Position numbers and translations under genes: made by a program. 64,000 nucleotides of DNA from Candidatus Latescibacterota bacterium (GTDB lineage Bacteria; JAAXHH01): the NCBI GenBank assembly GCA_022823465.1, contig JAJEHX010000051.1:1-64000 (forward strand), written 5' to 3'. This document shows positions 1,007 through 2,385 of the stretch, piece after piece (positions within the stretch are counted from its first letter, which is position 1; each line of letters opens with the position of its first letter). Below the pieces are notes generated by a model that saw only the letters and a program-made list of their open reading frames with translations, did no database searches and had not been told where the DNA came from.

Positions 1007-1031
1007 GTAGCCCCCAAATAAACCTGCGGAA

Positions 1032-1060
1032 TTGACAGCGGTCGCCAGGGGGCGTATATT
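1032..1060 (+). promoter_or_regulatory. Sigma-70-type promoter for small RNA 1
   Basis: TTGACA at 1032-1037 and TATATT at 1055-1060 are separated by exactly 17 bases on the plus strand. It reads away from the PepSY gene and into a non-coding stretch that ends in a terminator hairpin, so no protein gene is served by it. Confidence 0.65.
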
Positions 1061-1065
1061 TCAAA

Positions 1066-1160
1066 ACAGGCCGGGACCGGATTGTACTCGCCAAGTGTAC
1101 GTATCCCCCTGGTCCAGGGACTATCGGGGAGAGCCGGCCAGCCGAACCGATAGTCCTTTT
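1066..1160 (+). ncRNA. Candidate small RNA 1, downstream of feoA
   Basis: About 95 nt lie between the predicted start 6-8 nt after the TATATT box and a T-run at 1157-1160. The RNA contains GGACC/GGTCC arms (about 1075-1079 and 1111-1115). It ends in a perfect 10-bp hairpin with arms at 1118-1127 and 1147-1156 followed by TTTT. The terminator 5' arm GGGACTATCG, its CCA prefix and an internal GTGTACGT are shared with candidate small RNA 2. There is no plausible coding frame on this strand. Regulation of, or by, the adjacent metal genes is inference. Confidence 0.55.
1118..1160 (+). terminator. Intrinsic terminator of small RNA 1
   Basis: GGACTATCGG (1118-1127) pairs perfectly with CCGATAGTCC (1147-1156) and is followed by TTTTAATT. 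In the minus direction there is no T-run after the stem, so it acts as a plus-strand terminator, not one for feoA. Confidence 0.7.
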
Positions 1161-1182
1161 AATTATGTTACATCCCTTCAGC

Positions 1183-1446
1183 TCAACCTCTTTCCACCAT
1201 GACCGAACGGGCCTCGGCGCAACGAATGGACAGGTGATACCTCCGAACGCGTATCTCGATCGGATCGCCCATGGGGGCGCGTTTGATCAATTCGATGGCT
1301 GTCCCGGGAAGCAGCCCCAGTTCCATCAGGTGCACTTCTTCTCCCGCCGTGCCCTTGATCTGCCTTATCGTCGCTTTCTCGCCCGGTTTCAGTTCATCCA
1401 GGCAAATCATCTGCGCTTGCGTGCTGGTAAAGAGTTCGGAATCCAT
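1183..1446 (-). CDS. feoA: FeoA-domain protein
   Basis: 87 aa, the normal size of a stand-alone FeoA. The SH3-like FeoA signature is visible: CLDELKPGEKATIRQIKG near the start, LMELGLLPGTAIELIKRAPM in the middle and DPIEIRVRRYHLSIR toward the end. FeoA is a small cytoplasmic partner of the ferrous-iron transporter FeoB. No feoB lies next to it, since both neighbours are visible (PepSY protein and DtxR-type regulator). This is therefore an orphan, either assisting a distant FeoB or acting as a free FeoA-type adaptor. The 304-nt gap upstream carries a divergent small-RNA promoter and a dyad likely to control this gene. Confidence 0.9.
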   Translation of the reverse strand: MDSELFTSTQAQMICLDELKPGEKATIRQIKGTAGEEVHLMELGLLPGTAIELIKRAPMGDPIEIRVRRYHLSIRCAEARSVMVERG

Positions 1447-1551
1447 GGATTATCTCGCGTCAGTGGGTCCGATGCCGGTACTTGCTGCGGAACTGAAAGG
1501 TGTGTCTGGAATAGGCCGTGTCCCCTTTCGTTTGAATCGATCCGTTTCCGT

Positions 1552-1590
1552 TATAGTATTGACCTGTCGTGCAGGTTTCCGTATACTATA
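1552..1590 (+). promoter_or_regulatory. Small RNA 2 promoter overlapped by nested palindromes (likely operator)
   Basis: On the plus strand TTGACC (1559-1564) and TATACT (1582-1587) are 17 bases apart. The promoter is framed by TATAGTAT (1552-1559) and its exact inverse ATACTATA (1583-1590). The spacer contains a second perfect dyad, ACCTG-5 nt-CAGGT (1562-1576). Such nested symmetry over -35, spacer and -10 is typical of a repressor operator and would also cover a minus-strand promoter for feoA. The regulator is unknown; the neighbouring DtxR-family protein is the obvious candidate. Confidence 0.6.
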
Positions 1591-1593
1591 GCT

Positions 1594-1697
1594 TAAGAGG
1601 GCCGTGTACGTCCGTACCGCCCTCAGGGACAGTATCACCTGTCCTGCCCAGGGACTATCGCCGGGCTTGCCGGGCCATGTCGCGATAGTCCCTTTTC
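1594..1697 (+). ncRNA. Candidate small RNA 2, upstream of feoA
   Basis: About 100 nt follow the promoter at 1559-1587. Three consecutive hairpins are visible: GAGGGC/GCCCTC (1597-1602 with 1619-1624), GGACAG/CTGTCC (1627-1632 with 1639-1644) and a terminator (1651-1692) followed by TTTT. The terminator 5' arm GGGACTATCG and the GTGTACGT upstream match small RNA 1, which suggests duplication. The RNA lies wholly between feoA and the DtxR-type gene, on the opposite strand to both. Confidence 0.6.
1651..1697 (+). terminator. Intrinsic terminator of small RNA 2
   Basis: A perfect 11-bp stem, arms 1651-1661 and 1682-1692 (GGGACTATCGC/GCGATAGTCCC), is followed directly by TTTTCATTT. It reads on the plus strand. 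Confidence 0.75.
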
Positions 1698-1750
1698 ATT
1701 TCGCGGCGGCTGATATCCCGCCGCCAGGCCACTGAATGCTTCGGCTTTCC

Positions 1751-2281
1751 TCACGCCGACTCCGATCGGATTACCAGGCATTCGCCCACTTCCTCGCATA
1801 CCGCGCAGGACTCCAGATCGCATATCGACAGCACGTTGGCGTCCCAGTAGGACTTCAGAAACGCTTTGCCGTGGGGGTCGTCCGACAGGAGGAACTGCAG
1901 AAACAGAAGGAGCCGCTCACCCGTCTTCGAGCTGATCAGGTGCTCGATTTTGCATGCGTCGATTTCCGCCTGTTCCGCGTCGATATGCAGGACGCCTTTG
2001 AGAAAGGCGATGAGGATCTGACGGTGCGACCATACCGACTGCGCCAGCCGGTTTCCCTCGTCCGAAAGCTTGAGGAACCGGTTCCGGTCCTCTTCGAGGT
2101 ATCCCTTTTCCCGGAGCGACTTGATCATGATCGACGCACTGCCCGGCGTGATGTGCATCTCCCGGGCCACGTCCGATACCCGGGCGTATCCCTGGTCCTC
2201 GATCAACTGCTGGACCGTCATCAGGTAGTGCGCGCCGCTGTGCGTGATCTCGTTGTGCTCGAATTCTCTCCAGACATCCAT
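1751..2281 (-). CDS. DtxR/MntR-family metal-dependent transcriptional regulator
   Basis: 176 aa. The N-terminal winged helix-turn-helix spans roughly residues 10-70; VSDVAREMHITPGSASIMIK is the recognition region and LREKGYLEEDRNRFLKLSDEG the wing. Residues 75-140 carry the metal-binding dimerisation domain, with DAEQAEIDACKIEHLIS matching the family's Cys/Glu/His ligand segment. The extreme C-terminus is Cys-rich (CDLESCAVCEEVGEC), which could bind iron or zinc and is an unusual addition. The family represses metal-uptake genes when Mn2+ or Fe2+ is bound. It sits upstream of feoA on the same strand and has its own consensus promoter with a dyad near the start of transcription. Confidence 0.9.
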   Translation of the reverse strand: MDVWREFEHNEITHSGAHYLMTVQQLIEDQGYARVSDVAREMHITPGSASIMIKSLREKGYLEEDRNRFLKLSDEGNRLAQSVWSHRQILIAFLKGVLHIDAEQAEIDACKIEHLISSKTGERLLLFLQFLLSDDPHGKAFLKSYWDANVLSICDLESCAVCEEVGECLVIRSESA

Positions 2282-2300: not shown

Positions 2301-2385
2301 GGCAACAATCGTGTTGCCGGCACAATGAAAAGTTTGGCTATTCAAATATGGCTTCGAATTATATAACGTTTTGTAGGACTGTCAA
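2301..2385 (-). promoter_or_regulatory. Promoter and candidate operators of the DtxR-type regulator
   Basis: On the minus strand TTGACA (2385-2380) and TATAAT (2363-2358) are 16 bases apart, a near-perfect sigma-70 promoter. Just downstream is TTTGGCTATTCAAA (2333-2346, plus-strand reading), with TTTG/CAAA half-sites like those of MntR-type operators. Then comes a perfect GGCAACA-4 nt-TGTTGCC dyad (2301-2318) in the 5' untranslated region. Autoregulation is a reasonable inference. Confidence 0.6.

Follow-up and report, generated by a model that had tools for sequence, protein, structure and literature searches.

To our knowledge, RNA regulation is still poorly understood in those uncultured phyla that have no Hfq. 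In Pseudomonas, the PrrF RNAs are encoded by near-identical tandem copies, which are controlled by Fur and use Hfq. RyhB is repressed by Fur and assisted by Hfq (PMC9410917). FsrA of Bacillus and IsrR of Staphylococcus are iron-sparing RNAs with C-rich segments, and IsrR acts independently of Hfq (PMC9410917). In Mycobacterium tuberculosis, an organism with no Hfq, the promoter of MrsI carries an IdeR box (PMC8628891, PMC9410917). Our literature search for Latescibacteria together with non-coding RNA returned no paper.

We examined a 64-kb window (the whole stretch of DNA that was analysed), which is the start of its contig in a 3.86-Mb genome of a sponge-type bacterium, here referred to as G000. 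Its near relatives are metagenome-assembled genomes labelled Candidatus Latescibacterota or, for some of them, Gemmatimonadetes. A whole-genome search for relatives gave 11 same-genus genomes and 4 that belong to the same order or family only, and a further metagenome-assembled genome, L092, was added from a named collection. Three genes were identified at the beginning of the window: a PepSY-TM membrane protein gene cut by the contig start (1–1006, minus strand), feoA (1183–1446, minus strand) and a dtxR-like iron-dependent repressor gene (1751–2281, minus strand) with a perfect promoter, TTGACA-16-TATAAT (2358–2385, minus strand; 12/12 consensus positions). The PepSY assignment is based on the L074 orthologue, 87% identical, which matches PF03929 (E 6e-53), and that of feoA on the L074 orthologue matching PF04023 (E 2e-21); the orthologue of the repressor matches PF01325 and PF02742. 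The identities proposed in the initial annotation for the genes flanking two plus-strand small RNAs stood, with the addition that the RNAs, here denoted by sRNA1 and sRNA2, are opposite to their neighbours, since PepSY, feoA and dtxR are all on the minus strand.

The coordinates given earlier for both units were correct, and their promoters and terminal stems were found as described. The sRNA1 promoter, TTGACA-17-TATATT (1032–1060, plus strand), agrees with the consensus at 11/12 positions and precedes a predicted transcript of ~95 nt (1067–1160, plus strand), the ends of which were placed from the promoter and the T-tract and which scores 124.6 bits with its covariance model (R2). It consists of a 5′ hairpin holding the invariant AUCCCCCUGGUCC (1069–1114, plus strand) and a terminator hairpin with the long invariant loop GGGGAGAGCYRGCCAGCYGAACC (1116–1158, plus strand), the U-tract being at 1157–1160 and extending to 5–8 U in most orthologues. 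In sRNA2, the promoter TTGACC-17-TATACT (1559–1587, plus strand; 10/12), the 17-nt spacing of which is retained in the two other genera represented by G012 and G013, is followed by a predicted transcript of ~104 nt (1594–1696, plus strand; 124.2 bits with model R1). Three hairpins were found here, namely hairpin 1 (GAGGG...CCCUC, 1597–1624, plus strand), hairpin 2 (GGGACA...UGUCCU, 1626–1645, plus strand) and the terminator hairpin with its apical loop around CUUGCC (1650–1693, plus strand), with a U-tract at 1693–1696. Both transcripts end in a 12-bp stem with the arms GGGACTATCG/CGATAGTCC, preceded by CCA and followed by TTTT, and both fold far better than shuffled sequences (z −3.3 for sRNA1 and −4.9 for sRNA2). 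The two strands were scanned for near-consensus sigma-70 promoters (10/12 or better) with a downstream stem of 10 or more pairs and T4 after it; exactly two units were detected in the window, which were sRNA1 and sRNA2, and none in 30 Markov-random sequences. In 1.03 Mb of DNA surrounding 80 dtxR homologues, which represent many phyla, 12 of the 14 units detected belonged to this RNA family.

The initial annotation had called for compensatory conservation of the stems, and sRNA2 showed it. In an alignment of 10 sequences from three genera, which was fitted to the model and thereby favours pairing, 97.5% of the cells were standard pairs and 8 pairs were changed on both sides; none of 500 shuffles reached this level of pairing, and slid versions dropped to 39–48%. 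The sequence of hairpin 1 is entirely different between genera, yet 100% of its cells are paired, with 4 pairs showing two-sided changes. In hairpin 2, 90% of the cells are paired, and other pairs re-form the hairpin in G012; in the terminator hairpin the values were 98.4% and 3 two-sided pairs. The stems of sRNA1 hardly vary within its one genus, so that covariation speaks neither for nor against them. The G-U wobble pairs in both RNAs would be A-C if the other strand were read, and thus both RNAs belong to the plus strand, while single-base length differences between orthologues exclude any conserved reading frame or peptide. We consider it highly probable that sRNA1 and sRNA2 are genuine RNA genes and, judging from their sequences, that they are independently transcribed.

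The pair had been proposed to be a duplicated family. This held for the 3′ terminator hairpin, CCAGGGACTATCG...CGATAGTCC-T4, which is the only common part; it failed for the 5′ halves, which could not be aligned, each covariance model scoring the other RNA at just 17–22 bits. A second shared element, the internal GTGTACGT, turned out to be fortuitous, as sRNA2 orthologues read GCGTACGT, GCGTACTT or GCGTACCT at this place or have none. The sRNA2 loop in G012 (GGCUUGGCCAGUC) resembles the sRNA1 loop in G003 (AGCUGGCCAGCC), and a common origin of the 3′ part of both RNAs is likely from these sequences. A 13-nt identity, GTATCACCTGTCC, was also noticed between the feoA mRNA (1228–1240) and sRNA2 (1632–1644). 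It was rejected as a pairing site, since the two are of the same sense and unable to pair, and it is probably due to chance, as it is not conserved in the sRNA2 orthologues. With its GGRCUAUCG...CGAUAGYCC terminator hairpin, conserved apical loop and position at the Feo locus, this is a new RNA family that is absent from Rfam; searching the window and the locus at low stringency gave nothing relevant and no family match.

The promoter hexamers of sRNA1 were 100% identical in all 11 intact orthologues, whereas the spacer between them was only 73% identical, and the mean identity of the transcript was 91% versus 60% in the 35 nt downstream. Within the genus, the corresponding values for sRNA2 were 95% (hexamers), 53% (spacer), 93% (transcript) and 65% (35 nt downstream); for comparison, third codon positions were 71% identical in feoA and 79% in dtxR. 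Intact sRNA1 was identified in G000–G005, G008–G011 and L092, in every case together with the PepSY gene: G006 has neither, and in G007, which is without PepSY, a remnant is left that has lost the promoter and the 5′ part. On the other hand, sRNA2 was present in G000–G003, G006, G007, G011 and L092 and also in G012 and G013, from two other genera of the family; it was absent from G004, G005, G008 and G010, all of which retain sRNA1, and no strong match was found in G009, where dtxR is at a contig end. At least one RNA copy was therefore present in all 13 genomes of the family (G012 and G013 included) and in L092. The suggestion of further copies beside other metal genes was not borne out, since all copies in the 15 genomes are at this one locus and the hairpin GGRCTATCG-N10-40-CGATAGYCC did not occur away from it. 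Among the 80 dtxR loci, the covariance model matched Latescibacterota only, and in the order-level relative G015 there was a promoter-like site and no matching RNA (fold z +0.5).

In fuller relatives, sRNA2 is located between the dtxR-like gene and an operon of the opposite reading direction. This operon, as found in G002, G003, G006, G007 and L092, encodes a porin-like protein, ApbE (PF02424), an FMN-binding protein (PF04205), a membrane protein, FeoA (PF04023) and FeoB, and the PepSY gene (PF03929) stands between feoA and feoB in most of the full operons. The locus is polymorphic within the genus (window 1183–1750 compared with L074 3695–7370), as the block from the porin-like gene to the membrane protein gene is variable; it was missing from G000, G001, G004, G005, G008 and G010. 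The window's genome has thus lost the first four genes of the operon and kept sRNA2 and its promoter, and the same promoter is kept where the porin operon was lost in G000, G001 and G011, which argues that sRNA2 has a function of its own. The first gene of the operon (423 residues; L074 6044–7315, minus strand) had no Pfam match and was labelled porin-like by its look only; it may form a lineage-specific channel in the outer membrane.

As regards control, the relatives that have the full operon carry a palindrome, ATTGRCY-N9-RGYCAAT, around the sRNA2 promoter as a putative repressor operator; at this place in the window, the inverted repeat TATAGTAT/ATACTATA (1552–1590) surrounds the promoter. 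In the relatives, the arms of the palindrome were paired in 94.8% of the cells with two pairs changed on both sides, which is weak evidence given the small set. Throughout the 15 genomes, the palindrome was detected at the sRNA2 promoter of G002, G003, G006 and G012 and at two sites in coding sequences, and in no other intergenic DNA; the −35 box forms part of it, G000, G001 and G011 have an altered version, and it was not seen at sRNA1. It does not match what we take to be the DtxR/MntR consensus. From the palindrome and the adjacent dtxR-like gene, we infer a shared operator for the operon and sRNA2, and we rate the chances for and against DtxR-linked control of sRNA2 as equal. The earlier proposal that the RNAs are controlled together with metal homeostasis would be favoured to this extent, that is by the gene context and by the conserved palindrome over the sRNA2 promoter.

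The DtxR-like protein (window 1751–2281, minus strand) ends in a cysteine cluster, CDLESCAVCEEVGEC. Similar C-terminal clusters were observed in homologues (L086–L165) from many phyla, such as Kiritimatiellae, Hydrogenedentota, KSB1 and Sumerlaeota; the strict pattern C-x3-6-C-x2-C-x4-7-C fits 18 of the 42 DtxR homologues checked, the others having slightly different spacing. Its ligand might be zinc or an Fe-S cluster.

In our preferred reading, to which we assign a probability of roughly 0.48, sRNA1 and sRNA2 would be iron-responsive small RNAs that a DtxR-type repressor controls together with Feo and that spare iron by Hfq-free pairing, the mode proposed for MrsI. Each RNA is oriented so that it points away from an iron-uptake gene of the opposite strand, sRNA2 from the porin-ApbE-FMN-feoA-feoB operon and sRNA1 from the PepSY reductase-like gene, and the neighbouring DtxR-type repressor would repress sRNA2 and the operon through the palindrome over the sRNA2 promoter. 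When iron is scarce, sRNA2 would accumulate and, without Hfq, would pair with mRNAs for proteins that use or store iron, so that iron is spared. The metal response, the pairing mode and the targets given here are those we regard as most likely; whether pairing in trans is the main mode is, in our judgement, a matter of even odds. The family probably helps to manage iron.

No Hfq was found in 15 genomes of the phylum, in which the search controls were positive, and no CsrA in the window's genome; thus, pairing would be free of a chaperone or would use an unknown one. The ribosome-binding regions of the Feo-locus genes were no more complementary to either RNA than the background. Exact complements of the loops, as candidate trans targets, were few, not conserved and restricted to matches in coding sequences, the lone start-proximal one, in an ABC transporter gene, being rejected as it occurred in 2 genomes, one of which is without sRNA2. 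Limited seed searches for mRNA targets gave nothing convincing, and unrestricted duplex energies were uninformative for targets.

Cis-antisense control of PepSY is the main rival to the trans-acting iron sRNA reading, and we find it unlikely. Here, sRNA1 would act on the overlapped feoA-PepSY mRNA (and sRNA2 on dtxR read-through), and intercistronic pairing, a favoured PepSY hairpin covering the Shine-Dalgarno sequence or cleavage would uncouple PepSY from feoA. The hairpin in question, GCCCCC...GGGGGC in the PepSY mRNA leader (1010–1053, minus strand), would cover a Shine-Dalgarno sequence of the form GGGG(G) and shares part of its positions with the sRNA1 promoter; it is conserved in 10 genomes with 90% of the cells paired and modest covariation, and it is stronger on the mRNA strand (mean fold z −3.0 on the minus strand). 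In addition, the 5′ arm of this hairpin recurs in sRNA1 as CCCCCUGG, so that the antisense of this segment is available in the mRNA as an alternative partner of the arm, and the restriction of intact sRNA1 to genomes with PepSY points the same way. However, the predicted accessibility of the Shine-Dalgarno sequence was near zero whether or not sRNA1 was bound, and a switch between the pairings was predicted for no more than roughly half of the genomes. Moreover, no coding transcript overlaps sRNA2 wherever transcription of the operon begins at the operon's own promoter, and minus-strand read-through across the sRNA genes has to be assumed. Antisense attenuation of PepSY was reproduced only partly, the switch being inconsistent between genomes. 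Since the sRNA1 promoter is written within the hairpin covering the PepSY ribosome-binding site, we also weighed a two-sided RNA switch made of sRNA1 and the PepSY leader, in which the antisense would set PepSY translation together with feoA and sRNA2 would act in trans. We consider this improbable; if true, an uncultured phylum with no Hfq would have an iron-uptake operon under antisense control.

Alternatively, the long-loop hairpins could serve to titrate an RNA-binding protein or a metal-dependent regulator, and not to pair with mRNAs. The rigid three-hairpin structure, the invariance of the apical loops among otherwise variable ones and the lack of a known chaperone that would aid pairing agree with this. 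Nevertheless, the loops have no repeated motif of a protein site and sRNA1 has another apical loop than sRNA2, so we give the idea little credence; a CsrA-titrating RNA in particular was rejected, as the genome is without CsrA. It is very improbable that the units are not RNA genes but divergent promoters and terminators insulating the operons, or hairpins of minus-strand mRNA leaders: their intergenic location and the minus strand's own structures would fit, but an insulator has no need for the covariation in sRNA2 hairpins 1 and 2, the wobble pairs fit the plus strand only, and every intact orthologue has its U-tract and promoter hexamers on the plus strand. Two insertions of a mobile or repeat hairpin element, as the two copies with identical stem arms might suggest, can practically be dismissed, as this origin is already contradicted by the absence of any other copy in the 15 genomes, the copies are always at orthologous positions, and they share the 3′ hairpin only and both have promoters.

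What this locus offers is a clear uncatalogued RNA family at Feo, beside a DtxR-type repressor whose cysteine tail is unusual; the family is narrowly distributed and belongs to the regulatory small RNAs at iron loci. With MrsI it shares a length of ~100 nt, a host with no Hfq, a link to an iron regulator of the DtxR family and a proposed production under iron starvation. On the other hand, MrsI has a known six-nucleotide seed and known targets, and the cited text does not place it beside its regulator or Feo (PMC8628891, PMC9410917); no sequence relation emerged from the Rfam search, although MrsI may itself be outside Rfam. FsrA and IsrR recall sRNA1 by its invariant CCCCC, which in sRNA1 is mostly paired; they are controlled by Fur, and the two have neither synteny nor sequence in common; a relation of this kind to sRNA1 or sRNA2 was likewise not found. 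The proposed iron-sparing role would be that of enterobacterial RyhB, which differs in using Hfq and in having no sequence match here, the RyhB and PrrF covariance models giving no Rfam match at the gathering score or at E ≤ 5. PrrF1 and PrrF2 are likewise two related RNAs close together in an iron context, whereas the present RNAs share the 3′ hairpin alone, have a separate neighbour gene each, and occur with a DtxR-type regulator and no Hfq. A RyhB/PrrF-like function of the pair, as first proposed, is plausible. If they are iron-responsive, they would add a further case of an iron-linked small RNA that arose independently, and the loss of paralogues, with genomes keeping sRNA1, sRNA2 or both, would serve as a natural experiment.
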